Source: Paramecium tetraurelia
Lineage: Eukaryota > Ciliophora > Oligohymenophorea > Peniculida > Parameciidae
Length of the DNA stretch: 64,000 bases
Direction: 5' to 3'
NCBI RefSeq assembly: GCF_000165425.1
Contig: NW_001798961.1
Span: 1-64,000, forward strand
Positions 1 to 38,285 of this stretch are shown one piece after another; position 1 is the first letter of the stretch; each line of letters begins with the position of its first letter. The translations under genes and the position numbers were made by a program. The notes under the pieces were generated by a model. That model did no database searches and had not been told where the DNA came from. It saw only the letters and a program-made list of their open reading frames with translations.

Positions 1-47
1 CAAACCCATACCCAATCCCAACCCTATCCCCAAACCCAAACCCTAAT
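1..47. repeat. Telomeric repeat tract (C-rich strand at chromosome end)
   Basis: Short C3-C4 runs alternate with A/T spacers, including clean CCCCAA and CCCAAA units mixed with variants such as CCCATA, CCCAAT and CCCTAT. Paramecium telomeres are known mixtures of CCCCAA and CCCAAA units. The C-rich strand reading inward from base 1 is the expected orientation for a left chromosome end. The variants could be real telomerase misincorporation or sequencing error. Confidence 0.8.
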
Positions 48-4988: not shown

Positions 4989-5689
4989 TGGAATAGCCTT
5001 AGTTCAAGTCCATTGTTAATTGCATCTCTGAACTTCAAAGTTCATTTTTTTTTTATGAATGGCCCAATTATACTATTAGGGTCTTATATAGAACTTTAAC
5101 ATGCTAAATTCTAACAAAAATTAATAATATTAATTTACTTTCAATTCATTAATAAATTTCGCGTAAGTCTTTTATCAAGTATAAGTATTTTGGCTAAAAA
5201 TGTTGATTTTTCAGATTACATAAACTAAAGTTCTGGAATTATTAACTTAAGTAATCATAAATTATGATTAATAAAAATGATATTCTCAAGTTTAATTTAT
5301 GTTCATTGAGACTAATTTCATTAATCTTAAGATAGAAAAAAAATTGCGAATTAAAAAGGTTGATTATTTTATATATATAAATTTCATTCTTCTTGTTTCT
5401 CTAAAACTTCTCTTAAAATCTAAAAATATTAAGACGACTGCTCCAAGGAACTTTTATATCGCCAAGGAAATCCAGAATAATGTAACTGAGCAACATTAAA
5501 AATTTAATCCTCTGATTTTCCTTCATGGATACAACACAAAACAAATTCATGGAATCCCTGGGATATTTAGCTTACCAATTGTTTAAATATTTTCTAAACA
5601 CCTTTTAAAACATTGGTTACAAATAAAATGGGCATTGTTTTGATATGCAACAATTTTGTTGCCAAACCTATTCTTTTGCATTCCTAAAT
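4989..5689. other. No confident gene
   Basis: AT-rich. A plus-strand ATG at 5299 opens about 115 codons before TGA, with a hydrophobic early part, but it shows no motif or intron support. The stretch lies where the 3' part of the decayed MRC1-like copy (minus strand) would be expected. Beyond 5690 I could not follow similarity with confidence. Confidence 0.3.
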
Positions 5690-5985
5690 TAATACGTCCA
5701 TTGTTAATGGAATAACAAGAATTTTTATTCTAAGTTTGTGATTTTTGTTACAATTTTAATTATAACTTTTCTGAATTCTTTATATTTATCACTTCTTAGG
5801 TATAACTCTGATCACTAATTTAAATAAATCAGGTAATTCTGCCTACAACACACCCTTTTATTATTCTTCCATTTCTTCTTCAGAATTTTTGGCCCATATT
5901 AGTTTTCCTTGTATTGGATAATTGGAGCAGATACTTAAAGAACTGAATTAGATTGTTTTCAATTGATAGAAACATCTTTATTTAA
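5690..5985 (-). pseudogene. Decayed 5' end of an MRC1/claspin-like gene
   Basis: Read on the minus strand, this segment matches the start of the intact gene at 61755 base for base over long runs. Shared runs include gtatctgctccaatta, a GGGCCAAAA block, gaataataaaagg and aaattagtgatca. The leader upstream of the start codon is also shared (aataattaaataaagat). The start codon is lost, with small indels and in-frame TGAs after the first 40 or so codons. The match fades below about 5690. It sits directly downstream of the GRD-Y gene, the same order as in the other copy. Confidence 0.8.
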
Positions 5986-6010
5986 TTATTTCTCTAAATT
6001 GTATAAATAG

Positions 6011-6500
6011 TCATTTTTTATAGTGTAAGCTAGTTAATTTTCTAATCTACAAATATGGATCCTCTACTTATTTTGAGTAATAAAGCCTTTTTGTAATTGA
6101 TTATGTTTTTGAAAATGATTATAACATAGTAGAACTATCACGGGTATTACATCTTATTTTAGTATCATAACCTCTTAAATTCGAAATGAAATTCTTTTTC
6201 ATTCCTATTGAAACTGAAAATCCTCCCTCATCATAGCTTCAAATAGTTGACCTTATACCTAATATATCCATCTCTTCCACTTCCATTATTTCTATATCTG
6301 TTAATCTTTGAATCTATGCAAGGAGCAGGTGATGCTTGATATCTCCGATTAGGGTATGAACCACTCTCTGGACGGACAGCTTACATTTAATTTGATTTCC
6401 AAAATCCACCATTGAAATTACTCACATAAGTGTCCCTGCCTGTTCCATCAACCAGATAGTTACTCAACTTTGTATTGTTCATAACAGATTTTAAATACAT
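6011..6500 (-). CDS. Small protein with two GRD-Y motifs (155 aa), unknown function
   Basis: Two exons on the minus strand, with a 22-base intron at 6237-6258 (GTA...AAG), give 155 residues ending at TGA 6011-6013. The protein carries two related motifs, DGTGRDTYVSNFNGGF (about residues 17-32) and NGSGRDGYISYDEGGF (about 84-99). The second motif is only completed after splicing, which supports the AAG-ending intron. The first ATG at 6500 is used; the in-frame ATG at 6482 would shorten it by six residues. The repeated G-R-D-x-Y...G-G-F pattern reminds me of short ciliary or cytoskeletal proteins, but I cannot name the family. A decayed copy lies at 61575-61704. Confidence 0.75.
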
Positions 6501-7272
6501 TAATATTTTATTAACTTTATTTTATATTTATTACTTATAATTGGTTCTTTAAATACTCATTTTTTGGATGTTAAAGAAGTAGTAAGTATTTTGAATAACT
6601 TAACCAAAGATAAATCTACTTTGAATCATTTTGGTAAATAAATAACCTTTTGATTATAATTAAATTATTTGAGTACTTCATTTGTTGAAATAATTCAAGT
6701 AATTTATTTATTATCAATTTAATAAGGTTGAAAATTATTTCAAATGTCCTATATTTTCCTTACGCACTCTCCCAATTCTTAAATAATTTGATTGTTATGC
6801 TTTTGCCTAGCCATCATAAATTAACATAAAGAAAGAACAATCTTAAGAAACCTACAAAAATAAACTATAATTTATGAGGATGTAAAAATTTGTTTTATAA
6901 TGGGTATGTAACAAGTGAACCAATATTCGACAGTTTAGAATACAATGCTCGAAGCCACTTTACAATGAATACTACAGATCAAGCATGATAATTTTCCTCA
7001 TATTTATAATCATTATTTTGAGGGGAGTTAGATTTTTAACTATAAATTGAGAAGGAAAATGCAGTTTTAATTACCATCTAGAAAAACTTGTCATTTGAAG
7101 TGTTTATATAATAATATAATTTTGAAATGCCTATAAAAAGTTTAATGATGGTAAATTCAAAATAAATTATAGATTATTCAAATAAACCTAAGAAAGAAAG
7201 GGCGATAATAATATTTAAATAATACAACCTCTTTAACGATATTTGGATTAATACCTTATAATAATAAATAAC
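6501..7272. other. Intergenic, nothing recognised
   Basis: AT-rich spacer between the 3' end of the large membrane-protein gene and the GRD-Y gene, both on the minus strand. It should contain the GRD-Y promoter and the terminator of the upstream gene. No open frame of interest, RNA gene or repeat was seen. Confidence 0.5.
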
Positions 7273-16360: not shown

Positions 16361-17752
16361 TTTATTTAATGTTATGAATTTGAATATTTAATAAATAAAT
16401 TTTAAATACAATCTATTTAATAAATCATTGGATATTATACCAAAATTCATCTTTGCTACATGTTTCTTACTAATGTAAATTAAAAACCGATTAGCTTTGA
16501 ATAGATCATATCATTAATTCATTAAATATTTTTATCTTGGGATAAACTTTTCCACATTTAATGATTAAATGCCAAAAATTTAATATAATGATATTAATAA
16601 TAGTAAATTAAATTAACTTGTGGACCTGAAGTTGATATTTTTTTCATTAAAGGAGAAGATAATTTCATATTAAATAAACTTTTGCAAAAATAGCAATTCA
16701 TAATAGATTGACTTTTTCAAAAATAATAATTCTAAATAGGATAATCATCAGAATCTCTAACATTTTCAATATATCTCTTTAACAATTGAGTAAGTTAAAA
16801 GGTATTCAAAAAAAATGGTTTGAGAAACAATTCTATACATTTATTGCAATTTAAAAGAATTCCAAATTCTATTGGATCGGATTATAGCTTTTTATGTAAT
16901 CTATATTATCTTCTTATAATTAAGTTTTAGTCTGGATAGTCCATATTTTAAATTTTTATATCATTATAATTATTCCTTGCTAAATGACTATTAGTAGAAT
17001 AATACATTAGATTTCATTTGCTAAGTAATCTAAATCAATGTATGTCAAGCTATGCAATATTAATAATCTAATTATTTTAGCAAAACTTTATTAAAAATTA
17101 TTCTACAATTGATAAGAGGAAGTGCAATACTAACAAATACGAATAGATTCTTAGATCGTTTACTGGTAATTAAAAAAAATGTTTGAGATTTTGCACATCA
17201 GTTAATTTGATTTCATTTAATTAACAAGATAATCTTAAACTTTCCTTCATATCTTTTGAAACTTCTTTATTATTTAACTATCTTTCCTATGATGATTTTA
17301 TTTATTAGTTTATTAATTGGTTCTTGTTGCTTTTCCAATAAAGTTTTAAAGAAAATGATTTTTCTGGCTGAGAGTTGTATTCTAGAGGGATAATGGATGG
17401 TTTGGCAGCACTAAATTATTATCTTTGAATAATTGTCAGTCTCTTTCCACTTTAGAGTACTTATATGTTAAAAAAATATTGAAATGATTCCCTAAAATTT
17501 AAATAAGCTCATGTATTTAGTGATTTAAAAGTAATCAAATTTTTAGATACACATTCAAATAAATTTATGAAACTGGGTGAGGTATGAGAAACCATTTTTC
17601 ATGGTCATTCTATATACTATTCTTCTTCAGTCTCTTAAATTTTTTCTAAATAATAAAATATCATTGATAAATATGCATCGCTAATAATATGAGTTGTAGA
17701 TTATCTGAATTGATACCTTAATTTTATATATATATAAATAATTTCCAATCTA
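16361..17752. other. Long spacer with a possible decayed minus-strand gene
   Basis: The spacer separates two divergent starts (16360 minus, 17753 plus). Within about 16500-17200 the minus strand has TGA-free stretches that look protein-like but switch frame. They include NCNKCIELFLKPFF near 16850-16800 and NCYFCKSLF near 16700, each with a C-x2-C pair. In-frame TGAs at 16806 and 16717 break any single reading. I read this as a possible remnant of a Cys-containing gene, with low confidence. The rest is AT-rich with no recognised feature. Confidence 0.3.
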
Positions 17753-18127
17753 ATGATCGATACTGATCAACAAAATCAACCAACTAGAAGTGATCATTCT
17801 TAAGGAGCCTATTAAATAATAAAATCAAACTAAGTAGAACTATCTATTCAAAATAAAGTGATTGAACTGGATGTCGATTATCCGAAGGTGCCATAATCGA
17901 GAAATAAAGAGAAATTACTGTGTACAAAATGTAATGAAGTTGTTGAAACCTATATCTAATTTGAGATGGGTAGGTGTAGTTATCTAATGATGCTAATTTT
18001 AATAGTAGGCATAATAACAGCTGTCTTGGCCTTCTTGCCTTGTGTTCTAGATGGATGTAAGGATGCAAAGCACAGGTGTCCGAAATGCACCAAACTAATA
18101 GGAACAAAGCAGTTTATGTGCGGATGA
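17753..18127 (+). CDS. LITAF-domain membrane protein (124 aa)
   Basis: An intronless frame of 124 residues. The C-terminal half has the LITAF layout: a first CTKC knuckle (about residue 57), then a hydrophobic stretch (LMMLILIVGIITAVLAFLP), then HRCPKC (about 106-111) and a final L-G-T. In the known family the two half-sites form one zinc site flanking a membrane-dipping helix, placing the protein on endosomal or lysosomal membranes. The N-terminal half is polar and Q-rich. The start is the first ATG after AT-rich DNA. The next gene is convergent. The family call is secure; localisation is inferred from the family. Confidence 0.9.
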
Positions 18128-18490
18128 ATTAAATAATATACTATATTTAACTCAATAATTAGCAAAGATAATGCCCTGTTGTCTGATTCTTAATGTTGGA
18201 TTGAATTAAGTTTAAAAAAATAGAATCTTCTACATCTTCATTCGATACTAATTATAATTAATTTTATTTTGGAAATTAATCATATCAGTTTGATAGCAAT
18301 TAGGTGTAAAAATAATATTACAAATGCCTATCATCTTTTAAATTTCCTATTTCGTTTACTTGAATTCAAGGTGAATTTATAATTAAAATAAAGTCAACTG
18401 TTAAGTTTTTAAATCTAAAACCAAAATAGTAGTACTTATTACTACTATTATAATTTTTATTATATTAATTAATACTAATAATAATATATG
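18128..18490. other. Convergent intergenic spacer
   Basis: AT-rich DNA between the 3' ends of the LITAF gene and the MORN gene, with runs of tact/taat. Nothing else is recognised; presumably it holds both polyadenylation regions. Confidence 0.5.
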
Positions 18491-19633
18491 TCAAATATTA
18501 ATATCTGATTGCTCATGCCCTTGACTCTCTAATATTATTGCTACTAACCTCATAAACGTTTCTAACTCTATTTCAAATTCATTGTACTTGTCCTCTTGCA
18601 AATGCTTTAAATAGCTTTGAAGTATTTTTTCTAAATAACTCCATATAATTACCTTCGATATCAAAACCCATGCTCTAAAAGATGGCTTTGCTATTAATTA
18701 AAGTAATTTTATGTTCCTGATTGGAGGCAGACTCAAATTATAAAGCCAAGTCTTCCATCTCCTATTTAGAATACATTTCATCTAATGGGATGTGAATGGC
18801 TCTATAAATGATTCTCTCCTTTCTAGCCAACTCCATAGACTCCTTAAGAACATTGGTAGGGTCTTACAATTCAACTTTAGGAATATCAGGCAACACGTAA
18901 GGATCCATGAAATGCTTCTCTCTTTCCTCTTTCACTGTATAAGGATCCTCTACTTCAGAATACACTCCAGTTTTTGGCATGTCATCCACCCATTCTCCAA
19001 CAAACACTTGATTTTTTGTGGCAAAGAAGTAAGATCCTTAGCCTTCCTGAATAATGATAATGTATTTTTATTACTCTCTTATCGTTTACCCAATAGCCCT
19101 CAAAATGATCACCATTTCTTTTAGTTAAGACTCCATAACCACTTCTTAAGCCTTTAAACCATGACCCCTCGTAAACATCGCCATTGGCATAAATCATACG
19201 TCCTTCTCCATGCGATTTATCATCCTACCATACACCATCATATCTATTTCCATTCTAATAAAACATAGTTCCTTTGCCTGTTTTCTTGTCATTCACCCAA
19301 TCTCCTGTATATTCTCTTCTCATTCTAGAATCATAAATTTGAATGTCTATACTTATTCTTTCCTTCGCTCACCCAATATGTACCTTATCCATTTCTTTGA
19401 TTATCATACCATCCACCTTCATATTTATCACCATTTCCATAATATTATACACCAAAGCCACACTTTTTGTTTTGATTCCAATCACCAACATATTTTTAGT
19501 CAGCCACCCATCTCTCTTATTTTTAAGTTCCATCTTCATTCTTTGTTTAACTTTTTACCCAATAAATTGCTTTGTGTAATCCATTTTTCTCTGCCTTTTA
19601 ATCATTAATCTACCATTATCGAGCAACTTTCAT
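18491..19633 (-). CDS. MORN-repeat protein, MORN3-like (354 aa)
   Basis: Three introns (19325-19352 and 19047-19074, 28 bases each; 18631-18652, 22 bases) are removed to give exactly 355 codons. About six MORN repeats run from residue 20 to 200, for example YVGDWNQNKKCGFGVQYYG, YEGGWYDNQRNGQGTY and YEGSWFKGLRSGYGVL. The last is followed by FVGEWVDDMPKTGVYSEVED, which closely resembles the end of the MORN array in MORN3 proteins. The C-terminal 140 residues are helical and acidic and end QSDINI. MORN3-type proteins are associated with sperm and cilia in animals; here a cytoskeletal or cortical role is inferred. One intron ends CAG rather than TAG. The start ATG at 19633 faces the divergent CCT gene. 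Confidence 0.88.
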
Positions 19634-20076
19634 TGAATTATTCTTTACTGATTATTTCTACTACGATTATGAATAGTAACTGGCGTCTTAATACATAATT
19701 TAAAATTAATAATAAAATTAAGCCAATCCTCAATCATAATACCAATAATATGTCCATCCTTTAAGGAGTAATCAATAAATATGAAACTTATATTGTTATA
19801 CATAATTATTAATCAATTCTTAATATTTGATATATATATTTTAGAAAGTTCATTAATCACTTATTGGTTAGTATTCAAAGTCACCCATTATTCTTGCATT
19901 CTTATGATATCTTAATTTATACTGTTGCTAATCATTTTTAAGGGTTTCTAGTGAATAAAGGGGAATTCTCCAGTTTTAGCATCCTTCAATGAACGGAGGG
20001 CCCATACTTAAGGTTTTATGATAATTTGGATATAAATAAAAAGATTTTTAAACCAAAATAAAATCTTGTGCGTAGT
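19634..20076. other. Divergent promoter region
   Basis: This 443-base AT-rich spacer lies between the minus-strand MORN gene start and the plus-strand CCT gene start, so it should contain both promoters. It has one slightly GC-richer patch near 19960-20010 without an obvious motif. No gene seen. Confidence 0.5.
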
Positions 20077-20986
20077 ATGAGCACTCTTAAAGTGTTAAGT
20101 GATGCAGTATTTGATAAGAATGAGAAGCTAGAGATAGAAAAGGAAAACTCCTTTACTTAATGTGAACCTCATTATATGGCAGAGAATGAATAAGTAAGAC
20201 ATGATGCATATTTTTGAATTAGGAGGAAGAATTATAGGAGGGGATTCAATTGCCTGTTTATTCACCTTAGTAGTTTTCACATTTCAAAAGACCAAAGATT
20301 AGTTTTGATGAATTCAATCTCGATGAAGATCCCAAAAAAAAAGTATGCTCTTAATAGGAATCTATAACAGCTGAGCAAACAGACGTATAACCAATGGGAG
20401 ATTTGGAAAGATTGGCTGACATGCTCTAACGTGAAAATCAAAAGAAATATTCATACCCCAAGAATTTGCCTGCTCCCTCTAACGTCGATAATCATTTCGG
20501 CGAATTGGCTTTGCGATTCGCACCTTCCCAAAGATAGGATGAGTTTGTATCAAACTATGTGAAGGGAGATGATTTGTTGAGAATCAAGGTAGGATTGTGT
20601 GATGATATCCTTAATGATGAAGAAACATTAAAGTTCGAAGATTGGGTTGAACAATTATGCACTTCAACCAATCATGAGTCACTCAAGGAAATGGCAAGAA
20701 AATAAAAGGTCAAGCGATATTTGGATAAGAAGCATAATCGAACTTACGAAAAGAAAGTTCATTATCATATCAGATAAAAGGTTGCTGAAGAGAGATTAAG
20801 AGTCAAGGGTAGATTTGTAACATGGGGACAAGTAATACAAGTTTGTTGATATTTCTATAGGCATTAAAGATGTTGGATGAGAAGGACACCAAGAAATCAT
20901 GGAGTTACAATGACTATACTAAAATCAAGGGTTTACTGAACGAAAAGTTTGGAGCTGTGAAAAGTGAAAAGTCATTGAGATTCTGA
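20077..20986 (+). CDS. CCT-motif protein (283 aa), putative nuclear regulator
   Basis: Two 29-base introns (20194-20222 and 20832-20860, both GTA...TAG) give exactly 284 codons. Residues about 200-240 form a CCT motif (as in CONSTANS and TOC1): basic RYLDKKHNRTYEKKVHYH, then IRQKVAEERLRVKGRFV, with the conserved R-x-R-x-K-G-R-F core. The rest is acidic and low-complexity with no B-box or receiver domain visible. In plants CCT motifs bind DNA with NF-Y-type partners and carry a nuclear localisation signal. A nuclear, DNA-associated role is therefore likely, but the target is unknown. The start is the first in-frame ATG, and the stop is TGA 20984-20986. Confidence 0.88.
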
Positions 20987-21580
20987 TTGTTTACAACACT
21001 TGCGTATATTAATATATTATATCGTTAAATTCATTTATAATAAAATAGTGATATTGTATTCGAAATTCATACTTGAAAAGTGATGTAAATAGAATATTAT
21101 TCATACTCATGCTCCTCCCAAATATATTTTGAAATAAATAAATTGCCTATTCTATCTCTAAATCTCATAGTTATATTGGTTTATGAATTAAAAGGGTTTA
21201 CTTCAAAATTCATCTTCATTGGATAATAGAACTAGAATTTATTAGAATTCTAAAAGCATTATTGTATTTAAATTAACATTTTTGAGGAGAAGTAGATATA
21301 ATTTTGAGAAAGATAAAAATGATGAATGAAATCAATTCGAGAATAAATGAGATTTTGAAAATGAAGATTAAATATATTCTATTAGAATATGCGTCACTTG
21401 AATTATAATGGTTTTGATGGGTAGGTATAAAATAATAAAAAATAATTATAAAAATAATAATGATAAATTATTAAATATAAAAATTAGAAGATGTAAGGGG
21501 GTAGGTGAAAATATTTTAGTGTATTTGGACTTATGGGTGTAAGTGCAGATGAGAATATAATAATTATTTTAATACCTTGA
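20987..21580. other. Intergenic, nothing recognised
   Basis: This 594-base AT-rich spacer between two plus-strand genes holds a few G-rich runs near 21500 (ggggtaggtg). No frame, repeat or RNA gene that I can support. It presumably contains the Myb gene promoter. Confidence 0.45.
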
Positions 21581-22324
21581 ATGAAGGACAGCTCTGTCTT
21601 AAACTTACCCTCTTATTCATCTCATCCTTAGGAAAATCAAAATGGCTAATAAAATGAAATTAGTGAGACCAATAGCAGTCAAAGAACAAACAACCGAAGT
21701 GAAATGGGTTTTAGTTAATAAGTAAGGATTGGTGTAATGACTTCTAGGAAGGAAGCAAGAATACAGAAGGCACAAAAAAGAAAATCAACAAAGAATAAGG
21801 TTAAAATGGGATAAAAAATTAAGGCCATTGGACTAATCAGGAACATCAAATATACGTGGAGTTCTTGGAGTAGCATCATTGCACATCGATGCAGAGTCAA
21901 TAAAATAGAAAGAATAACAAAATCTTCAAACTTATGTCACAAACAATAGGAACTAGATCTCCATCCTAGTGCAGGTAAAATAACATAATAAGTAGATCGC
22001 ACCACCAGAAATTCAACCCTTATACAGCAGCAGGGTAAAAAAGGAACAAGAGAAATCGCAGGAGATTAAGCAATTAAAATGTAGAAGGGGAGAACTTCCA
22101 TAATATGACAACAAAACCCATGATATAATTTAATACTCCAACGGTGAAACCCATTTTAGGTATGATTGATGAATAATACTCGAATAGATCAATGTTATGA
22201 TGAGTGCGATGGTTACATCTCAAACTATGAGGATTCACGTCCTTAGTTACAAAATTATTGTGGCAACTCCAACTTCGATTACAAATACGGGAATAGATGG
22301 GATTGTGATTCAGATCTTTATTGA
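21581..22324 (+). CDS. SHAQKY-type Myb/SANT DNA-binding protein (222 aa)
   Basis: Introns at 21722-21747 (26), 21975-21995 (21) and 22160-22187 (28), all GTA...TAG, give exactly 223 codons. Residues about 70-128 form one Myb-like repeat: GHWTNQEHQIYVEFLEQH, then a spaced IFKLMSQTIGTRSP, then QCRSHHQKF. This is the SHAQKY(F)-class signature with the TR-x3-Q-x-RSHxQK core. The second intron splits the RSHHQK motif, and the motif is intact only after splicing. A basic KRNKRNRRR stretch follows and may be a nuclear signal. The start is fixed by an in-frame TGA immediately upstream. This Myb class is abundant in plants and protists; a sequence-specific transcription factor role is likely. Confidence 0.88.
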
Positions 22325-22378
22325 CTGGAGTTATCATATTCGATTTGTTTATAAAATTATAATAAAAAAACAATGTAA

Positions 22379-23605
22379 TCATTCATCTGTAGTATCAGTT
22401 TAATCATTGCAACAGCAATACTCTGAAATCACATCTCCGCATGCAGATTCTGCTTCTTAGAGTTCCATTTCATCAAGACCTTCTTGCAAGAACAAGTGCA
22501 AAAATGCTCGCTTTTAGAAAAGTGTCCTGTATTGTTGTTACAATAAATTAAGTTTATTTCCCATAGCAGTATGATGATTGATTGAAAAAGCCATTGGATT
22601 GCATTATTTTTGTTTAGCTGGACAAATGCTGTAGGTGATAGGATCAGCAATCCACTTAACGAATTGTATTTCATCTGAACTTAGAGTCTACTTGAATTCT
22701 TACTGGACTGAAAATATGTCAGTATCCCCATAGATCATGATTTGTTGGGCTAAAAACAAACCCTAAGACATGGACATCGAGAATGTTTGGTTTCGTTTAG
22801 AATAGATCTCTTTACTCATTTGCAATAGAGTTGGCGAATTGATATACGAAAATAGAGGAGCTAGTGACACAGTATAGCAATGCAATTTGGGAAAAGGAGT
22901 GATGTTGGTTTAGATCTTATAAAAGTTTGTATTGGAGTAACAATTGTGACGAAACGATTTGTAGATCCCATCCATTGCAAAAGCTAATAATTGATTGTAC
23001 GTTTCATAATTTTGATCGTAGATGAACATATTCTCTGTCATTTATTGTAAGGCATCATTATCAAAGTAGAATCCCATATTGTAATTGTAATTTAGATGCA
23101 TCAAACCAAGTAGACAATTATAGGGATAAATCACACTATTTTCATATTTTGATGGGTAAATAGAAATGTTGATTTAGGAGCAATCAAAAAAGTTATCGCT
23201 TGTATAATATACTAATTTGGCTCCAATTCCAGATCCAGTTCCACCAGTAATTGAATGAACTAATTACACTGCTTAAATTCCATCGCATTACTCTTACTCT
23301 TTCCTTACCTTTTCCACAATTTCATCAAATAAATCATTCGAACCATAATAACCACTAGCAAATGTCAAACATTTACTACTCTTTCCACTTACAAAATTAT
23401 TTGGATCATAATATGAGAAATTCTTATCTCCTCTAATCTTATCCAGCGTATTCTCCTCACTATCTACAAGTATTGCTCTTGGTATCCCTTTCCGAAAAAA
23501 CTTTTAATCCAAATTCTCACCACAATCGTCTATCATTTGATTCCATATTGCATTCCCTATTTGATTTCCACTTTAACCCACTTAAATTGTAATTATTTAT
23601 TTCAT
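22379..23605 (-). CDS. Divergent tubulin-superfamily protein (408 aa)
   Basis: One intronless frame. The N-terminus MKQIITIQVGQSGNQIGNAIW matches the first strand and the GQxGNQ phosphate-binding loop of tubulins. The glycine loop reads ITGGTGSGIGAKL at about residues 117-129, slightly upstream of its usual position near 140, so about 20 residues are missing from the early loops. Total length is 408 against about 440-450 for alpha, beta and gamma tubulins. The middle is highly diverged and the C-terminus ends CCCNDQTDTTDE, with an unusual Cys triplet. Ciliates carry rare tubulins (eta, theta, iota, kappa) tied to basal bodies and cortex. This could be one of those or a new divergent type; sequence alone does not let me choose. 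Confidence 0.85.
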
Positions 23606-23818
23606 TAATTCATATAATAATTAAACTCATGCACGCATTATCTATATTCAAGCAAAAATAAGAATAGGAGATCTAGAGGGCTCGTTTATATGAGCAATCC
23701 CTAAAAATGAAGGAATTACAAAAAAGTTAAATCCTCTTGAAATCTTGTGAAAGGATGCAAATGTTATCCGATAGATAAATGCAAAAATTGAGATAAAGTC
23801 AGCTTTCTGTTGTCAAAC

Positions 23819-24197
23819 ATGAATAGAACCATCTACGATTCAAATCATTAGAAAGAGATGCCATTCATATTCACACTCGGTACATAACTCTTCTAAGAAT
23901 TAAGTCCAAAAATTGAACTAGAAAAGGATGCTTACGATGAATGGGTTAAGACACAAAGGAAAATGCAATCATAAGAGGAGAGCCAAAAATTGGATAAATT
24001 TTAAGCCAAAATATCAAAGGCCAATGAAATAAAACTGATGTAAGAGGAGGAACTATCAAGCAAATAGAAGCTGAGAATTCAAACCTAACTGATTAAGGAA
24101 TCAATCCATAATGAGCAATAACTTAAATTACAAGTATATAAAAATTATCATGTAGAAAATTTAAAAATAAGAATATGCTAAATTACAACACTTATGA
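23819..24197 (+). CDS. Small coiled-coil protein (118 aa)
   Basis: One 22-base intron (24134-24155, GTA...TAG) gives exactly 119 codons ending KLQHL. The sequence is strongly helical and charged (KTQRKMQSQEESQKLDKF and similar), consistent with a coiled coil; no family is recognised. An in-frame TGA upstream supports the start. A second open frame from an ATG at about 23707 overlaps the start and could be an extra 5' exon if an unseen intron joins it. The gene is followed after only 41 bases by another coiled-coil gene on the same strand. Confidence 0.65.
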
Positions 24198-24238
24198 ATA
24201 TTTATATAATTAATTATTTATTTAATTAATTGTAAATA

Positions 24239-25095
24239 ATGTCAAAAATCGATCCACTGCTGAAGCTTAGATAAAAACAACAACGAGAGATGCAGCATCT
24301 CATAGAATATGAAAAATAATTAAGAGATAAGGAAATTAGAAATTCACAACTGCTATTGAAAAAAAAAGAAAAGTTCTAAGACATATCTATGAAGCAATTG
24401 AAATTCAAAGAAGATTTAAAATAAAAGGCTGAGCAAAAGAGAATTGAATTTGAAAGGAATTTAAGTCAAGCAAGATTGATTGAATAAGAATAATTGAAAG
24501 TAAAGAAATATTTCATAATTGCAGCAATCACAATTTCATGTTAATAAAACAATTGAAATGGTAACTAAATTTGAAAATGAATACCAAAAAGAACAATTAG
24601 ATTTTTTAAATCAAAAAAAATCGGAGCACAACCATTAAATTGAGTACGTTTTGGAAAATAAGAAAAAAATAGAAAACAGAAAATTGAAAGAGTTAAGTCA
24701 ATCTTTAGATGCAAAATTCAAATCCTCTTAAGAAGTATATGCCTCATTGATATTCAATAGTTATAAGACAATTTGAATAAGCAATTAAGTGACAGATAGA
24801 AATAGGAATAATAAAAATTACAAACTTATTTTAAGTAGGTTGAAGAATAACAATAAAATCTATAAAAAGAAAGAATGAAAAAAGGAGAAATGTTTGAAGA
24901 AAAACTAGATAAAGTAGAAAAATTAAAATAAGAGAAAGAAAAAGAATTGAAAGAAAGACAAAGACTTCGATTAGAGGCTGAAAAATAAAAAGAAATGTTA
25001 TCTAAGGAATTTTAAGAAGAAATTGTGGTAAATAATTAAAAAATAAATTTAAGAAAATGTAAAAGTCTAATTTTCGCAAACAGTTGCTAAGTTGA
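24239..25095 (+). CDS. Coiled-coil protein (259 aa)
   Basis: Introns at 24500-24524 (ends CAG), 24735-24760 (ends TAG) and 25028-25053 (ends AAG) give exactly 260 codons. The protein starts MSKIDPLLKLRQKQQREMQH and stays almost wholly charged helix, ending EIVKMQKSNFRKQLLS. The last intron removes an AT-rich run and is needed to reach the nearby TGA at 25093-25095. No domain is recognised beyond the coiled coil. Neighbours on both sides are also helical proteins, suggesting cytoskeletal roles, which is inference. Confidence 0.7.
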
Positions 25096-25147
25096 ACGTG
25101 AATTTCATAAATATATATATACTCAAAAAAATAATATTATAAATTAT

Positions 25148-26563
25148 ATGTCAATTAGAAGATCAATAATTCAAAAAAAAGACTTAAGAAATGACTTCAA
25201 AAAGCAGGAATAAAATCTACCAGATTTATCAGATAAGTTTAGAAAGGTATTTGAAATTTGTGGGGATGAAATTATTTCATGTCTTACTAAAAAAGAATAA
25301 ATTTAATTGCGATCAGGTTGATTAGAATTATATATATTCAAGTTTGTAGAATTTCATTTTATATGGTATAAAGTTATTAAGTATGGAATATGATGATTTT
25401 TGATAGTGATTAAATTAGCCAAGCCACAACAAATGATTCAAATATGAAGGAAAGCTTTTTAAAAAACTCTTTTTATTCAAAAGTTGGAAAATCAAGACCA
25501 TCTACTTAAGAAACAGTTTAAAAAGAATAATGGTTGATTAAACCCGCGAATTATAATCCACCTTAAAAAAAGTTAATATTTTTAAAAAATAAAAACAAGA
25601 TTGAAGACAATATCCTTGTATTATTTTAAATTTAAAATAGTCGGATGAAGATCTCAAATAAACTATCACAGTTTGGACTCTTAATTTAAATAGTCTTGAA
25701 AAATAGATAAATCTTGCAAAAAATCAAACTGACAGTTTTATTTAGGAAATTACATTGTGGACAGATCATATTAATTTATTATAAGAATTTTAAAAAGAGT
25801 ATCAACTTGAGCATGTTGGAAAGATACTATAAATATTAAAATAGAAATCCATTTTAGATGTAGGTTTGGAAAGGAAAAGAAGAATATTATAAGATATCCT
25901 TAATTCATTATTAAATGATTTTGCATTAAAGAAGCAATATTCAATTGATATTCAGTCGTTAAAACCTGTTTGCTAAAGTTTGTTGCAGGTTAAGTTGGCA
26001 GACTTCTATTAAGAGATTCCAAATCAATTATGGTCTAAAATAGATTAAATTTAAAATCGCTTTGATAAAATTTTTAATATAAGAAAGGAGTTCTTCTTTA
26101 TGAAATTATTTTAGATAACCTAAAAAATATTCTCGATCAATTTAAGTTGGATAGTTGGTTTTTCAAACTATGAATTGACTCTTAATTTGTTAGAGTAATT
26201 TTAATAGTTTTTAGTCTCATTGGTAATTGTTTTGTTTTCTATCATAAGATATAAAGACACTCTTTTGGGGAGAAGAAGTTTAATTAAAATTAACCTCAAC
26301 ATTCTTAAAATGAACTTTATTTTTAGAACTATAAAAAGTCTATCGATGACATCATGAAAATGCTCAAACTTAATAAAAAGCTTTATGACAACTAAAAGGA
26401 AAATCTCTAAGTCTAAGCCCTGTTACAAGGTTATAAATAATAAACTTTTGATTAGTTTCAAGAAAAGCAATAATGGGCATAGATTTATGTATTATCATAC
26501 CTAATATTATTAGAAAACATGGAAAGAGAAGTATTAAAACATTAAGAAATAACCTTAAGGTGA
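25148..26563 (+). CDS. Helical protein of unknown function (435 aa)
   Basis: My model uses four introns: 25317-25349 (33 bases, starts GTT), 25381-25406 (GTA...TAG), 25618-25640 (GTA...TAG) and 26223-26248 (ends AAG). It gives exactly 436 codons. Without the first two introns the locus would split into two overlapping small genes, which is unlikely. The N-terminal 90 residues are polar. The rest is predicted helix with phrases such as TVWTLNLNSLEKQINLA and NYKKSIDDIMKMLKLNKKLY, probably coiled coil. No family recognised. The 3' end around 26560 could differ if a further intron exists. Confidence 0.6.
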
Positions 26564-26783
26564 ACCAGAATCATAAGAAGGGATTAGTTTCGGATTTTTT
26601 TAGACTAAAATGAGTTGGAGTATATAATGACTATATTTCTACATTAAAATTATTCAAAATCACTATTTCCTTTACACTGAACTGAGGGGCCTAACCTTTG
26701 ACAATATTCTATTTTGAGATTCTATAACGACTCTGGTTTAATTGTATTTTCTACTTTCCATATTATATTTTTATTGAGCATCA

Positions 26784-28953
26784 TCACGTTCTTAATGAAA
26801 TCTAAAAAGTTGAAAATATACCTCTTTAAACCTGAGCTATTTGTTATTTGAATTTATCTGAATTTACAGTTATTTAATCTTGAAGTTCTTTGATCATTTC
26901 TCTTAATTTATTTGCATATGCCCTTACAGTACTAAAATCCATGGACATAAAGTTTATAGAATCCAATTAATTGTAATCAATTTCTAAGATAATCTAACTT
27001 TATGATTATCTTAATTATTTGGTAGCTGTTTTAATTGTTTTTTCTATAGTTGATGCCTTTTTAGTCAAGGTAGCTGTAACACTATTAGTTTCTAGAAAAT
27101 GAAATAAGCTGTATATACTAAAGATTATACTTTTTATGTTTGACTTTATTTGGCAGATTAGGTTTGTCTTATTTAGGGATACTAAACGACTTTAATCCTC
27201 CACTATATCCTCCTGTTTCAATTTTATCAATTACTTTTCCTTGTTTGGTAATAATATCGTATAAATCTAATAATTCTTCAACAATTTCATTAATTTAGGA
27301 TCTATAAAATATACAAGAGGATACTTCTTTTTCTCTCTGTATTTCTTGAATTAAATAAGAAAGTTTTCAATTTCTTAGACTTTAGCGCTTAGCTTTTACT
27401 CATACTAAAATTTATAATGATCCAATGATTTATAATATTCAGCTTTAATAATCTCTAGACCTTTATTAAATTCCTTTTCAATTTCTGTTTTGATTTACTT
27501 TTTCAATTCTTGAAGCTTTTGATTTTCAACATTTTTTGTCTAAGCTGTTTAAGGAAGATTGAGAATAGAAGCAACTTTGTCTTCTAGTAGGTTTTTAGAT
27601 TCATCTTGTAATTTTTTAATAAATTAATCTCTATCTTAAGATAACAATCGAATTGCATCATCTCCACTCATTTTAGACAATTATAATTAGTCTTTCAATT
27701 TTTTATTAATTTCTTTTTGTTCCAAGACTTGTTATTAATATCTTTCCAATTTAGTATGGGTATCCTTTTTCAAATCTTCAATATCCTTCTTTAATTGCGC
27801 ATTTTCATAATAATATTCTTCGATTTATTATGACAAACTGACATTTTTTAATAAAGCTTCTTATTGGTTTTTGAAGATGGTGACATCCTTTGCATTTTTA
27901 GCAGAGAGCCTTTCTAAGTCAATATCCAACCCTAAAAGTCTTTGTAACTCTAGAAATCTCTTCTTTCTATCAGCATTTAATTATTCAACTTTAATTTTAT
28001 ATTCTTCAATTTCATCTTTCAATTTCTTGATTTCTTTCTCTTATTATATGTTAACCTAAGAATCAAAGCCTAACATAGATTATTATTTTTTAATCGTAGC
28101 CTATATATTTTTCGTTCGATCTAAATATTGAAGTGTCAATAAACATTCCTCATAATTTGATTAACTAGGATTAATTGTTCCAATTAACACAACCTGTGTG
28201 TTATTTTCAATTATTAATGCTGAGGTTAATTTGGATTCTTTTTTTGGTAATATTTTATTTGGATTTTGATTGAAAGAATTTAAGCAGCGATTAAGTACTT
28301 AATGACTAGCAGTAATCAAGATAGCTTCCTAAAATTTTTCGCCTTCAGTTATATTTTTTGCGACCCTTTCAGATCCTGCTAAATCTACAAACTATAACTT
28401 AGTATTGGAATTGATCTCCAATGTGAGTATAATATGAGTTCTCATTTATCTTTTGATATCAGTGCTTCTTAGAATTTTGATCATATCCCAAAAATCATTG
28501 ATTAACAATATTTATCGCTTTGTGAATTCCTCTGTGATCAAATTTGTATTTAAATCTCTTATTTAATTCACATAGATCTCTTGAAATGACACCTAAACAT
28601 TCAATCCTTTTTGGAGTATCTATTAAATCAATAGAGGAACGATTCCTGGATGTTGAACATTTCCAAATAAGGAGTAACTTTTACCACCACCGGATTGTCC
28701 ATAAGATATTATACATCCATTCTTATTCTCATAATCAAAATTAAAGACACTTTCGAACAATTCCTATTATGTTGAGGAGGATGGGAAAATCTTGTCATAA
28801 CGATATTATTGCCATTCAGCCTATTTATATGTTGGATCCTGCCATTATTTTCATTACAAATACCTTAATAGAGATAACATTCTAATCTATACTTAGCATA
28901 GATTGATCATATTCAATTGGTCTCACTCTCAAATAAACTTTATAATTATTCAT
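26784..28953 (-). CDS. Divergent kinesin-like motor with N-terminal motor domain (699 aa)
   Basis: Introns at 28839-28863 (ends CAG), 27302-27324 (ends TAG) and 27109-27130 (ends CAG) give exactly 700 codons. The motor domain starts at once: YKVYLRVRP (strand 1), then a P-loop reading GQSGGGKS (about 74-81; canonical GQTGSGKT), switch II DLAGSER (about 183) and a late LQYLDRTKNI. Switch I (canonical SSRSH) is degenerate, reading RQMRTH. A long coiled coil follows, then a segment with GGYSGGLKSF. Kinesins move on microtubules using ATP; the altered switch I makes full activity uncertain. The start codon lies only 5 bases after the stop of the upstream PGPG-repeat gene, so the two may be one gene. 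Confidence 0.85.
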
Positions 28954-28958
28954 ATAAA

Positions 28959-29695
28959 TCAGTATATACCAAACTCTCCTGGTATTTAATATTTCCCCGG
29001 TCCTGGTGTACTGCTCTATTTACTGCTAAATCTCTCCTCCTTCGAGAACTTGGGTACATAGCAATTTGACCAATTTGAATTCACATAACTTGCAGACAAC
29101 TCTGTTTTCGGTCTATATTATTATGGACCTGGAATGCAATCAGGCGTTCGGCTAGTTCTTCCTGATACTGGATGGTAAATTACTGATTAAGAGTGCTCCT
29201 TATACTAAATATCATATTTTCCTGGACCTGGAGAACATGTTTCATCCTCTACTATTTGTTATTTCATATACTCATTGCAATTTTTTGACCAAAATGTGGT
29301 ATTCTTTCTTTTTTAATTATGCTAGATGCAATATTATATTTCCCAACAGATGGCATATCATTCTTTTGTTTAAAATACGTTCTCCCAATACCCATTGTGT
29401 GTTTTTGTAAATTTGATGATGTTTTCTCTTTCTCTAATTTATATGAACCAGGACCTGGAGTTTTATCACTCAATTTTGAGAAATCTACTTTTGTTCCCAG
29501 TCCAAAAGAAACTCCTTTATTGGGAGAACCAATTGTGCCTTTTATCTCATAAAATGAAGTTGAATTTTATTCATGCTTAACTTTATAATTGAACCGAGGA
29601 GATTTCGAAAATGAATAAAGCTATTTGCTAGTTGAATTATTAAGTGGATTCATTTTCACTTATTTGAAATTCTCATCTGTTTTGCTATTAAGCAT
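28959..29695 (-). CDS. SHIPPO/PGPG-repeat protein (237 aa)
   Basis: A 23-base intron (29249-29271; a 20-base variant also keeps frame) gives 238 codons. Four proline-glycine motifs recur with spacing of about 30-70 residues: TPGPGSYKL (about 77), SPGPGKYDI (about 147), IPGPQQYRP (about 179) and TPGPGKYQI (about 224). This is the STPGR/SHIPPO pattern of ODF3 and STPG proteins, which bind microtubules of cilia and flagella. The N-terminal 70 residues are polar. The stop TGA (28959-28961) is 5 bases before the kinesin ATG. An alternative 32-base intron ending AAG would remove the stop and fuse the two in frame. Confidence 0.82.
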
Positions 29696-30318
29696 TTTTA
29701 TATTCAAATAAAATTATTTAATAAATTATATAATACAGAATATTATATTTGATGACAAAGAAGTCAAATCAATCATATTTATTTAATTTCCTATTTACAA
29801 TTTTTCATTTTGTTTCATAATATTCTGTATTTCCTTTTATTTGCAATAGAAATAGATTAAATATTGGTTTCCAAAAGTTTATTGAAAACTGAATACAAAG
29901 TTTGTATTATTTTTATTTCAGATAAATTTTGATAAATGTATTGTTAGTACTAAATTATCAGGTTAATCACACATAATTTAAAGATATCTAATTTTTTAAG
30001 AATTTTTTATCCTGATTTAATATGCATTCATAAAAAGCTTATTAGAAAAGACTGAATAAGGTAAAGACCTAAATAATATGGCAGTGATTATTCTTTAATG
30101 CATATTACAAATTTCAATATATTGAATAGGTTAGATTTCAAACGGATTTTACACAAGATACATGAATAAACTAGATAATGTCATCGAATGTCGTTAGTCT
30201 AGAATTTCACCGATTGGGGAGGTTGAATGATTATATATATAAATTGGATAATTTGCTAATTCATTTTATAAAGTATTCGTTTTTAAGGAGAATCGAAAAG
30301 CATTAATATTTATATATT
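29696..30318. other. Divergent promoter region, nothing else recognised
   Basis: AT-rich 623-base spacer between the PGPG gene start (minus) and the secreted-protein gene start (plus). No supported frame. A GC-richer patch near 30180-30225 has no identifiable motif. Confidence 0.45.
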
Positions 30319-32395
30319 ATGAAGACAATTCTGCTTATTTTATTGAGTGTGCAGATCTTGCTGGCTCAGGATCCATGGGTAACCCATTACACAGCATTTA
30401 CATCAGCAGAAATAAATGATTTGGATGGTAAAGAGTGATAATTATGCTTAGGTTGGGTTGTAAAGAAGGCATTTAAGGGAAACACCTTTAGCAAATGTGA
30501 CAAAGTGAGTTTGGTTGGTGGTTATGGCGCATTTGGAAAAGGGGCAACAGCATTAAAATAATTGAATCTTCCTCCCCATTATAAATTAAAGATTAATGTG
30601 CAGTTATGGAAGTAAATTTAATTTATATAATTAAACCTCTAGAATTGACAGTTGGGATAATGAAATTATGTTTGTTTTGGTTGATGGTTTCATATGGCAA
30701 GCTAAATGGCATTATTCAGAAGGAGCAAATTTATGTGGTGCAGCAAATGACTGGAAAGAAGCCTTTTACAACATCGAATTTGAAGTTCCACACAATTCAC
30801 CAACAGTAAGTATAGTTTTTGACCTCAAATTTGGATGAAGATGCTTTGAATGTAAAATTCACTTTATAAAATAGGAATCTTGGGCATTCAGAGATTTCAA
30901 ATTGTCATTCCAAAGATGTCATTCAGAATGTGCAGTTTGTGGAGATAATAAGCCAGACAATTGTTTCTTTTGGACAAATGTAGCTACTAATTGGAATAAA
31001 TAAATTTCATTAGAAGGATGGACATTGGATGGAGAAGGAAAAGCTGAATCAAATGAATGTGCAGGAGTACAACTCTTTGGTGGTTTTGGGAAATTAGGAA
31101 GAAAGGCAAATTTGTGGAAGAGATTCACAAATTTACCACCTCACTATTAAGTCAAGGTGAAAGTTTAAATGTGGAAGATTGATTCTTGGGATAACGAGTT
31201 GTTCTTAATGGAAATTGATGACTAAGAGAAATTCAGACAAGCATTTGCTTATAATGAAGGAGTAGATCTCTGTGGTGTTGATACAGGTGCTAAATAAGGA
31301 GAAGGATGGGCTGAAAAGATAGTTAATATTGAAATTAATGTCCCTCACAAATTCCCTGAAGTCAAAGTTTTAATGAAATCTACATTGGATGAACCACCTG
31401 AGAATGAATCATGGGGAGTCAGAGACTTCTAATTATTTGCTGCCCAATGTTTCAAAGGATGTACCGGTTGTACTGGACCAGCTAAATCTGATTGTACTTC
31501 ATGTGGATAAGGTTTCGATCTTGTCAATGGTGAATGCAAAGAAGGAAGTAATTAAATAGATATATAAATTGATTAGTTAAATGGATGACATTGAACAGAT
31601 TCTTCTTTAATGATGAATAAGATTTCTAAGGATTGTATGATTGGGTTCCATCAAATGTATTCTAAAATTAAAATCCATTTTCAACATGTGGATAAAAGAA
31701 ATTGTTCGGTGGTTATCAAAGATTTGGTGCCAAGGGTAAGGCTGAGAGAAACTTCAATCTTCCCAAACATTCAAGACTCAGAATACAATTCTAATTCTGG
31801 AAGATAGATTCATGGGATGATGAGAAATTCTAACTCTTCGTTGATGGCAAGGTTGTCTTTGAAAGATCATTCGGATTCAGTACTCCAGGACAAGCCAAAA
31901 TTTGCGGAGCTCCTTAAAGCACTTGGATGACTTATTTCTTCAATGTTGATGTCATTCTTGAACACACTAATCCTACTGCAAATGTTGTCTTGAGTTCTAC
32001 ATTAGATTAAGCTGCTGATGATGAATCATGGGGTTTCAGAGAATTCTAAATCCTTTATGAATTAAAAGAAGATTGTGTTGAATTGTATACTGAATGTGGA
32101 TTCAAGGGAACCAAATTTGATGTCTGCAGAGACACTCCATCCCTTGCTAGAGTAATCATCCATTTCAATATCTTTTTAGGAAAAGATCAGTCAAGTTAAA
32201 TCAATCAAGATTCCTCCCGGAGTTGTCGTCTAAGGTTTTGATGAAGAGGTTTACAAAGGAAAGACTGTGAAGTTTTCATAAAGTTAAGATTGCTTAGAAG
32301 AAATCTAATTTTCTTTCATCCAAAAAAAGTTTGAAATCATCTAAGCTGATGATTCTGTCCTTGCTGCAAATTTAAGACGCATCAGATTTGATTGA
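30319..32395 (+). CDS. Secreted three-repeat protein with beta/gamma-crystallin-like C-terminus (about 646 aa, one base out of frame)
   Basis: Introns at 30428-30451, 30612-30642, 30852-30874, 31548-31576 and 32152-32179 are all GTA...TAG. The N-terminus MKTILLILLSVQILLAQ is a clear signal peptide. Three repeats share WKIDSWDNE (about residues 90, 258, 459), an L/ICGA-type Cys, and a closing ESWGFRDF-like motif. Repeat 2 is followed by a Cys-rich linker (CFKGCTGCTGP). The last 95 residues (ECGFKGTKFDVC..., SIKIPPGVVVQGF) have the paired Greek-key pattern of beta/gamma-crystallins. In Tetrahymena, crystallin-tailed proteins are dense-core granule cargo, so trichocyst or other granule cargo is a reasonable guess. 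Splicing leaves one extra base near 30820: a frameshift or read error. Confidence 0.82.
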
Positions 32396-32576
32396 TTTTA
32401 TAATCATAAGACATAATTATTTCTTGCAAAAGTCGTTCGCTTTATATTTATTATTATTTTATTTATATGTAAATTGATTAAAGTGTAATAGTTGATGGAT
32501 AAAATATTTAACAGCTCTCTGATATCTCCAAATGTCTGCTAGCTATTCCTGATGTAATTAATATCAATGTAAACTA

Positions 32577-34240
32577 TTTTTGCATCTTATTTAGCTTACT
32601 TTCCTAAACATCTCCTAATTTACTTATTCTGCCAAATTAAATAACTAAATAAATTCCGACATCAAATTGTAACTAAATATAACCATATTTCAAGTAATAA
32701 CTCATTAACTTTGACTGAATCACAAAAAAATTATTATTCCGTTTTCAAACAACAACTAAATGCAGAAAGTCAATTATACAATAATTTACAGTTCACTTGG
32801 TTGTAATCAAATAAAAAATCTTAATGTAATTTTAGCTTCTTAATTTAAGCTCAGCACCCAAATCAATCTAAACTGATAAGTAAAAAGAAATGGTAAATTG
32901 TAGCCGAAATTCTTAAATTGGAATAAAATTTGTATTAAATTGATTTCCTATATAGAAAAAATCTGATGGACTCTTGTCTAATCAAATATTCAATAGCAAA
33001 ATATAATCAGCTCCTTTGACAGCTCCATTCTCTGCTCGCAACTCCATTATAATGTGTTAAAGTGAAATCTAATCATCAAATGATTAAAAAATGAATGATC
33101 AATCTGATCAATACGACAAATATAGGTGGATCCATTAAGTACCATAAAATATCATTAATAAAAATTATAAAACACCTTCTACTCAAAAAGGATAGAAACA
33201 AAGATATTTTGTATAAGACTACTCTTAATTACACCCTAATCCATATTACGATCCAATATACATTTAAAACCAGTTTCAAACTAATAGCTAAATAAATACA
33301 GATATCAAATATTAAAAAAATAAAAGCAGGAACTTAAATCAGAATGTTTATTAAAGCTAAAATGCTAATCAAAACTCTGGTTTTAAATTATTAACCAAAT
33401 AGCAAAAAGCATCAACAATTAGTAATAAGCCAAAAGATGGTCACGTTATCATTACTTTACCTTAAACTAAAAAGAAGTTCGATAGTGTCTCTTAAAAATA
33501 GAGGTAGCAAACTAAAAGTTTAGATTAAATTAAAATAAATGATCATTTCAAAAGATTACTACAAACTTAAGAGTCAAGAGAGTTATATTCAAAACCATTC
33601 TTTTATTCTTAATATTCAAAAATATTGAAGATTCCAGCATAATCCTCTTCAGAGAAATATATATAAACTTTATACAAGCCTGTTACCAAATAGAGGATTA
33701 AATAGAGAGGAGATTTATCTCTAGAATAGAATCAAAATTACTCTTATGATCACCCTCAATAATAATATTATTCAGATGATAGTTTTGAGGGTAAGGCCTA
33801 AAACGTCAAGAAGGTAGACCTATATGAATTGGCTTAAGAGAGGTAATCAAATCGAGATTAGTCGTAAAATAACTCAAATTTGAATTCACAGGAAAATTGT
33901 AAGAATTAATACTAGGAGAGTCCTCCATAGAACTCTCAGTATTATTAAATGGCTCTTTAATCCAGTTAATATTATTAAAATTCTCATGATATAGAAGAAT
34001 AAAATCGAGATTCGAATATTTAAGAGTACTCAAACTTTCATTATTTCTAAGATAATAATCAATTTTCATAAAATCCTTTTGCTCAAACATCAAAGAAACC
34101 AATTTAAATTAAATTAAATATAAAGGAATTTATTGCCTCCGAATAGCAATAGAAATCCTCTCCTATGTCTTGTATTTAATTTATTTATACTAGCTAATTT
34201 GACTTAACAAAAAATAAACAACTAAAAAACTCATAGATGA
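32577..34240 (+). CDS. Q/N/S-rich low-complexity protein, N-terminus unresolved
   Basis: From about 32855 to 34170 one frame is open, with introns at about 32812-32844, 32953-32976 and 34172-34193. It encodes a glutamine-, asparagine- and serine-rich chain (e.g. NQNYSYDHPQQQYYSDDSF) with scattered basic stretches and no domain. With the last intron the frame ends KINNQKTHR at TGA 34238-34240. Unspliced, it would stay open to TGA 34471-34473. The first exon(s), 32577-32855, switch frame and I could not settle the start. Possibly a prion-like or scaffold protein; no function is proposed. Confidence 0.55.
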
Positions 34241-34676
34241 CGTATATGCTTAATGAGATAATAAAGTAGATATTATAAATTATTGTTTATATACTATATC
34301 CAAGATTTTACTATTAATATAAATATTATTTTTACAATTCTAAATAGATATCACACCATATCAACAAGCAAATTGCTTAAAATAAGAATAGAGGCTATTA
34401 GGTATATATGAATTCACAGAATTAGTTAAATAGATTAGAATAGATGTAAACTTAGAGTCTTAGGTTGTCCTGATGATGATACAAGGGGAAATGAAGTAAA
34501 TAATATATATATGTGTGTTGCTTACAACCTTTGAAGTGGAGGTCCTTATATTTATGTTAATTATAAGTTCATTAGTTTAATATTAAATTACGATAATTTT
34601 ATTGAATTAAAATTATAATTCAATCAGTAAAATATATAAAGTTCATGTATGAAAATAAGTATTCTGGCAAAAATAA
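34241..34676. other. Intergenic or alternative 3' exon
   Basis: Very AT-rich at first. A Q-rich open stretch at 34350-34470 continues the frame of the preceding gene if its last intron is not used. Otherwise it is convergent spacer before the phosphatase gene. Nothing else seen. Confidence 0.35.
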
Positions 34677-35404
34677 TCATGAATTTAGTATCTATTGGAC
34701 ATTAAATTACCCTGAATGTTCATCTTGTTGATTCAATTTCACTTTTTTCATCACGGAAGAGCTATCTTCTTATTTTTGTTCTTTTTGTATCTGTGGCTGT
34801 CTGTAGAGTTCTTTATGGTAAGCATCAAGTTATTTCATAAAGCCCATATTGGGTTGGGCAATTCTTCGCTTCGATTGAAGGAGTTTTAGAGCTTGGAGAG
34901 GGGTCATTTATAGATATTTTATTAAATAAGCAATAACAAAGGAAGCAGACCTAGATTTACCAGCAAAACTTTAAATACATATGTAAAATACCAATGAATT
35001 AGTATATTTTACTTGTTTTTGATAGCAGAATGAATGAATTCATTAGCCATCTCAAACTTGGACTTGATTTCTTAATCTACACTGTCGTTGATATTAATGA
35101 GAAGAGATTTAAAATCTTCTGCCTAATATGGGAATATTGGCATTTCACACACACTTAAAATATGGGTTATTTAAGCTGTAATTTAAACATTTTATATACT
35201 TTCATAGAGTTTATTTTTATTCAAAACTGTTCCCAAACATCCTATATATAGATTTGGTATGACCAAATTTGGCGAACTATCTTCTTTCAGTTGTTTTACA
35301 ACTAAAAATACCTTAACTTTCTCTAGAATTGCTTTGACATTCAACTCTTCTGGAAAATCCGCCATTTCATCGCGAGCATCGAAATGTTCCATTGAACTTT
35401 TCAT
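34677..35404 (-). CDS. Dual-specificity protein phosphatase (234 aa)
   Basis: A 23-base intron (34969-34991, ends AAG) gives exactly 235 codons. It falls inside the catalytic Cys codon, so the active-site loop HCFAGKSRSAS (about residues 136-146, HC-x5-R-S) exists only after splicing, which strongly supports the non-TAG splice site. The preceding NLVIPNLYIGCLGTVLNK is the usual start of the DSP fold, and the general-acid Asp is probably in LININDSVD. The tail after residue 180 is Q/K-rich. DSPs remove phosphate from Tyr and Ser/Thr, often on MAP kinases; the substrate here is unknown. Confidence 0.93.
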
Positions 35405-36925: not shown

Positions 36926-36964
36926 TAATCAATATATTTTAATAAATAATTATAATCGTCTAAA

Positions 36965-38249: not shown

Positions 38250-38285
38250 GTGAAAACAAAATAAAATTTAATTACATATTTTTTT

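Follow-up and report, generated by a model that had tools for sequence, protein, structure and literature searches.

Complementary gene loss in two inverted copies of a small block on one Paramecium tetraurelia chromosome

Background

Two short stretches near one end of a Paramecium tetraurelia chromosome, 55 kb apart and in opposite orientations, resemble each other across the end of one gene (GRD-Y) and the start of the next (MRC1-like), and each stretch keeps a different member of this gene pair. The question raised by this locus is how the two copies came to lie on a single chromosome, and whether they descend from a whole-genome duplication (WGD), as implied by the original prediction of fractionation after duplication, or from a smaller event.

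The window analyzed here is the whole stretch of 64,000 nucleotides, bases 1-64000 of contig C8 (304 kb); the genome searched, presumably macronuclear, comprises 69 Mb in 231 contigs. The genes in the window stay open only when TAA and TAG are both read as glutamine. The left copy of the block is located 5.7 kb from base 1 of C8, which carries telomere-like repeats. The features discussed below are collected in Table 1.

Table 1. Features of the two copies and their surroundings (positions on C8; those up to 64,000 are also window positions)
Feature	Position	Strand	Evidence
Telomere-like repeats of the C3A3/C4A2 type	1..45		Sequence and tandem-repeat detection
Relic, 3' end of another gene, abutting the MRC1-like stub	5393..5734	-	Intact relative at C121:195376-192461
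Broken 5' stub of MRC1-like, left copy, about 79 codons	5722..5962	-	Alignment to 61755-61991; TGA in all three frames
Spacer from GRD-Y stop to MRC1-like start, left copy	5963..6010	-	6 of 47 aligned sites differ from right spacer 61705-61754
GRD-Y, intact, 149 aa	6011..6482, intron 6258-6237	-	Open after removal of the 22-nt intron; paralogs in genome
Outer limit of the left copy of the block, at the upstream edge of GRD-Y	6483..6508	-	24 of 26 bases match 61627-61652
Segment flipped relative to partner C38:42160-19396	17725..43899	-	Reverse order in blastn; C32 and C46 share the C38 order
MGLACG gene, intact, 145 aa, beside the right copy	61091..61525	-	Open frame, ATG to TGA
Upstream edge of lost GRD-Y, right copy	61627..61652	+	Match to left 6508-6483
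Last 14 codons and stop of lost GRD-Y, right copy	61659..61704	+	YQSIRKLTSLHQNQ and stop, against YLQIRKLTSLHYKK and stop in the left copy
MRC1-like, intact, 918 aa, no intron	61755..64511 (past the window end at 64000)	+	ATG to TGA

Results

The duplicated block and its limits

Comparison of the window with itself by blastn yields a single strong inverted match outside tandem repeats, between 5752-6056 and 61962-61659 (79% identity over 314 columns, E 2e-50). Local alignment lengthens this match to 6056-5722 on the minus strand and 61659-61991 on the plus strand, with a score of 293; 500 dinucleotide shuffles scored no higher than 41, and 2000 random places in the first 100 kb of C8 no higher than 38.5. 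The core of the inverted alignment that had been predicted from 6140-5690 and 61575-62000 is thus significant, but its outer part, 6140-6057 against 61575-61658, is unconvincing, being equaled in score by 46 of 1000 shuffles. The true upstream match connects 6508-6483 on the left with 61627-61652 on the right; no shuffle in 1000 scored as high, and 1 in 2000 did so with a longer query. The right copy, therefore, lacks the counterpart of left positions 6482-6057, that is, the body of GRD-Y. The duplicated block spans 6508-5722 (minus strand) in the left copy and 61627-61991 (plus strand) in the right copy, and the homology covers some 0.8 kb. A whole-genome DNA search with 5690-6140 as the query returned two matches, the query itself and the right copy, and no third one.

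The flanking genes of the two copies are not paralogous in order. The observed alignment scores are reached by 46 of 300 shuffles for the flanks upstream of the block, by 198 of 200 for the left sequence compared with the rest of MRC1-like beyond codon 79, and by 21 of 100 for the downstream gene; extension of the left homology past codon 79 of MRC1-like or into the downstream gene was accordingly rejected. The neighbors of the left copy are a long open frame (7273-10668) and a relic of a C121-type gene, and next to the right copy are MGLACG and an armadillo-repeat gene (Pfam E 3e-5).

Each copy retains one gene

Each copy of the block consists of one intact gene and a remnant of the other, namely, GRD-Y with a 79-codon stub of MRC1-like on the left and MRC1-like with a 14-codon piece of GRD-Y on the right. 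This pattern, with both intact genes and the right-hand remnant as originally predicted, supports complementary loss after duplication on one chromosome, in inverted copies 55 kb apart.

The left GRD-Y protein contains the GRD-x-Y motif twice, and we infer that the gene is expressed. A protein search of the genome found members of the family at 10 other places at E<0.01, including a fragment on contig C170, and 3 of these 10 places contain an internal TGA. No match to GRD-Y was detected in Pfam or in the PDB (the Pfam search and the search for paralogs in the genome used a 146-aa form with a provisional intron, and the PDB search used the 149-aa form). The right GRD-Y retains, in addition to its last 14 codons in frame with the stop, the 26 bp that precede the start; because both of its ends remain there, this gene must once have been whole.

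The right MRC1-like gene has no other full copy in the genome according to a protein search, which gave a 62-aa match on C229 (E 1e-4). That search missed the left stub, and a protein search with MGLACG likewise missed a fragment on C170, so that short relics elsewhere can escape protein searches. The name MRC1, carried over from the original prediction, is unsupported: the sequence matches no Pfam family at E<=1 and has one match in the PDB, to thioredoxin reductase (E 0.49), and among Pfam families and PDB solved chains it shows no match to the Mrc1/claspin family.

The left MRC1-like sequence had been described as a broken gene, with a lost start codon, indels and TGAs; this holds, but the sequence is not a full-length decayed gene. 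It aligns with the first 79 codons of the right gene, only the 5' end being found on the left; none of its 9 gaps is a multiple of three, and TGA occurs in every frame. Differences from the right gene amount to 22 of 156 at codon positions 1 and 2 and 21 of 75 at position 3, which would fit either early neutral decay or a spell of selection. The left MRC1-like gene was apparently cut short by a deletion.

The relic that abuts the stub was delineated by comparison with its relative on C121 (blastn, 70% identity over 268 columns, 5393-5657; tblastn, 5734-5396) and by a genome protein search. The gene of this relic matches VWA only weakly, at an E of 0.004 that falls short of the Pfam cut-off. 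The stub thus adjoins the 3' relic of an unrelated gene, an arrangement expected from a deletion that began in one gene and ended in the other.

Whole-genome duplication as a source

The complementary loss stands, but a WGD source for it, implied by the original prediction, is not borne out: no trace of the block was found in the partner chromosome region, on contig C38, and the flanks are unrelated. The block had no counterpart on C38, either in blastn against the first 100 kb of that contig or in genome-wide DNA searches, an absence that rests on searches that skip very common words. Plain in-place fractionation of WGD copies was set aside because nothing of the block was found on C38 and the two copies have no flanks in common. 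Both copies lie on C8 and none on C38, where a WGD partner would be placed, although later relocation could hide the matching places; in its available text, a study of WGD paralogs leaves out pairs outside paralogous blocks on the grounds that relocation of genes could conceal WGD copies (PMC10195154).

The divergence of the pair is compatible with the age of the WGD but does not prove it. Third codon positions differ at a frequency of 0.28 (95% interval 0.18-0.40), compared to a median of 0.30 for C8/C38 ohnologs, which was obtained from 28 of 40 segments after 12 without a clear third-position excess, several of which look like wrong frames, had been dropped; the spacer is less diverged than the third positions. 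Dating by divergence is weak because gene conversion between WGD copies is widespread, as stated in the available part of PMC11334263.

A WGD origin is a doubtful but serious possibility, with a relocated copy as the main rival to a small duplication. Under this tentative scenario, the tip of the partner chromosome, with GRD-Y and MRC1-like, would have moved onto the end of C8 by subtelomeric exchange, followed by different losses in the two copies. The ohnolog-like divergence of the pair is in its favor. Furthermore, neither C38:10-19.5 kb, which matches C8 only at its edge (43.8-43.9 kb), nor C8:43.8-61.75 kb has a long, close partner, suggesting that the ends were exchanged or lost, and the left relic is closer to the C121 gene than to its paralogs on C108 and C211 (44-46% shared). 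Against relocation are the unrelated flanks of the two copies, the lack of any trace of the block on C38, and a third and a fourth fragment, on C170 and C138, which require small-scale copying anyway.

Two candidate source regions were examined and dropped. C121:195.3-204 kb, considered as the source of the left block, yielded nothing below E 0.7 with GRD-Y, MRC1-like or MGLACG. C178, considered as an older region paralogous to the right locus, carries a paralog of GRD-Y at a distance of about 3 kb from sequence matching C8:66.55-66.69 kb, but this sequence is only a short repeat (49% identity over 47 aa) that is also present on C72 and at C38:85 kb; we take this repeat to consist of MORN repeats.

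Further fragments of the neighborhood

In the genome protein search, MGLACG matches only itself, and the C170 fragment of this gene was found by DNA comparison. Back-to-back fragments of MGLACG and GRD-Y are found at C170:257229-257546, inside a stretch of about 850 bp for which the partner contig C31 has about 200 bp, a difference that could be a gain on C170 or a loss on C31. An 82-bp piece of the same C170 stretch is present at C138:9766-9848 (95% identity). More than two copies of the neighborhood thus once existed, which favors small-scale copying, and the fragments on C170 and C138 suggest repeated copying of small genomic pieces.

The end of C8 also carries, just inside the telomere-like repeats, a tandem array at window positions 206-1032 (period of 126 bp, 6.5 copies), the repeats of which we presume to be WD40-like. 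Among the 39 candidates scored out of 96, similar DNA is located within 1.4 kb of base 1 of at least nine other contigs (C191, C205, C222, C216, C220, C187, C169, C108 and C223); the far end of C138 carries it as well. By sequence similarity, these repeats look like members of a chromosome-end gene family.

An inversion on C8

Comparison of the first 100 kb of C8 and C38 by blastn yields 18 rows, with identities of 66-95%, of which 16 fall into two collinear series and the remaining 2 correspond to a short internal repeat. One series of eight rows connects C8:17.7-43.9 kb with C38:42.2-19.4 kb in reverse, and the other, also of eight rows, connects C8:68.2-87.3 kb with C38:42.8-60.9 kb in the same direction; on C38, the two meet within 0.7 kb. 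On C32 and C46, of which 10 kb each was read and which appear, from their lower identity, to be older paralogous regions, the 17.7-kb gene adjoins the 66.9-kb gene at distances of about 0.35 and 1.7 kb, respectively; C38 lacks the 66.9-kb gene, and the 68.2-kb gene serves as its stand-in. Three of the four paralogous regions (C38, C32 and C46) agree, so that the derived order is that of C8, the odd one out of the four, in which at least 26 kb is flipped.

The most economical inversion would span about 49 kb, from just left of 17.7 kb to just left of 66.89 kb. When it is undone, the two copies become direct repeats about 16.1 kb apart, under the assumption that C8:44-66.8 kb, most of which (43.8-61.75 kb) had only short or weak partners in a DNA search, was inside the flipped segment. 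The inverted orientation of the copies and much of the 55-kb distance between them are best explained by this inversion.

The flipped 17.7-43.9 kb interval is flanked by the inverted copies, as would be the case if the block were a scar of the inversion itself, duplicated by staggered breaks that were filled in at both ends, or if pre-existing inverted copies had recombined and so caused the inversion; papers on Drosophila reportedly treat this kind of mechanism. The inversion would then end at the copies, which is improbable. The most economical ends lie about 11 kb and 5 kb from the copies; C38, C32 and C46 join the 17.7-kb gene to the 66.9-kb or 68.2-kb gene within 0.3-1.7 kb, whereas ends at the copies would require about 16 kb of extra sequence between these neighbors. 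Moreover, with a break at the right copy, MGLACG would be expected by the left copy, unless the gene was outside the break, and MGLACG adjoins the right copy.

Three other observations concern the same part of C8. The interval 30839-31585 of the window differs from C38 at 2% of third positions (median 30%), a pattern expected from recent gene conversion between ohnologs. A direct repeat of 54 bp occurs at 31379 and 31996 (window 31379-32049; 81% identity), and the corresponding part of C38 contains it as well. The interval 45348-60560 is one open frame of 5070 aa in which CxxC motifs are numerous, and a DNA search with it found only short matches, on C184, C132 and C103.

Discussion

A proposed history of the locus

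The best reading of these observations, to which we assign a probability of about 0.58, is a small local duplication, followed by complementary loss and then by an inversion. The small local duplication is favored because the homology is confined to the block, C38 bears no trace of it, and more than two copies of the neighborhood existed; the divergence counts against it, in that it does not make the pair younger than the WGD (21/75 vs 0.30). We infer the small-scale origin and the following order of events. A block of at least 0.8 kb, including GRD-Y with its upstream edge and the start, at least, of MRC1-like, would have been copied by a small-scale event within one then telomere-proximal region. 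In the right copy, a deletion would have taken the body of GRD-Y but spared the upstream edge and last codons of that gene and all of MRC1-like; in the left copy, a deletion would have joined the 5' end of MRC1-like to the relic of the other gene, GRD-Y staying whole. Up to that point, the copies would have been direct repeats separated by about 16 kb; an inversion of at least 26 kb (most economically about 49 kb, from a point just left of 17.7 kb to one near 66.8 kb) would then have given them opposite orientations and a distance of 55 kb. As a result, GRD-Y would have been retained solely in the vicinity of the chromosome end, and MRC1-like solely at the inner site.

For the right copy, it is very unlikely that the GRD-Y body is kept in the germline and removed as an IES-like segment during formation of the somatic nucleus. 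The junction at 61653-61660 lies within a TA-rich run, and such runs are common in AT-rich DNA; a junction in a run of TA dinucleotides allows IES-like removal but does not demonstrate it. If such removal did occur, the complementary loss would be partly a somatic, programmed trait, and GRD-Y dosage would be open to epigenetic switching. The least probable account is a wrong join in the assembly, which would make the same-chromosome position and the inversion false: the flipped order is seen on C8 only, but the flipped segment is collinear over eight blastn rows and the right-hand segment over eight more, the copies differ at about 1/5 of sites and so are not one locus assembled twice, and the complementary loss would stand even if the join were wrong.

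Comparison with known systems

A small local duplication with later inversion has a counterpart in Paramecium surface-antigen genes, for which the available text of PMC9788069 describes duplicates that share a chromosome, are judged non-ohnologous and are subtelomeric, together with an inversion on a compared chromosome and shifted positions of the duplicates. Those duplicates belong to one antigen family, whereas here the block spans two unrelated genes and a different one survives in each copy. Reciprocal loss after WGD in the P. aurelia complex is similar in that one duplicate is lost (PMC11334263, PMC10195154); as used in the accessible part of PMC11334263, however, 'reciprocal' refers to different copies lost in different species, whereas the losses described here affect two neighbors in one genome. 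In the case of DPY19L2, as far as the available part of PMC1475853 describes it, a functional gene was relocated by duplication and silencing of the old copy; the present locus resembles it in that a functional gene is found at a new place through decay of the other copy. The DPY19L2 case differs, involving low-copy repeats in another lineage, and here the neighbor in the block shows a complementary loss as well.

A search of the literature by topic rather than by gene name, on intrachromosomal duplication, inversion and gene relocation, gave no paper on this locus among the titles listed. The locus is a new example of known processes, ordinary in kind and instructive in detail.

Conclusions

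The complementary outcomes of a single duplication are visible here within one stretch of sequence, and an inversion can disguise a local duplication as a distant, inverted one. In Paramecium, complementary losses on the same chromosome should be checked against the partner chromosome before they are counted as fractionation after genome duplication. If relatives of P. tetraurelia kept other copies, some hybrid offspring could lack GRD-Y or MRC1-like, a kind of hybrid incompatibility that the available text of PMC11334263 proposes for the P. aurelia complex.
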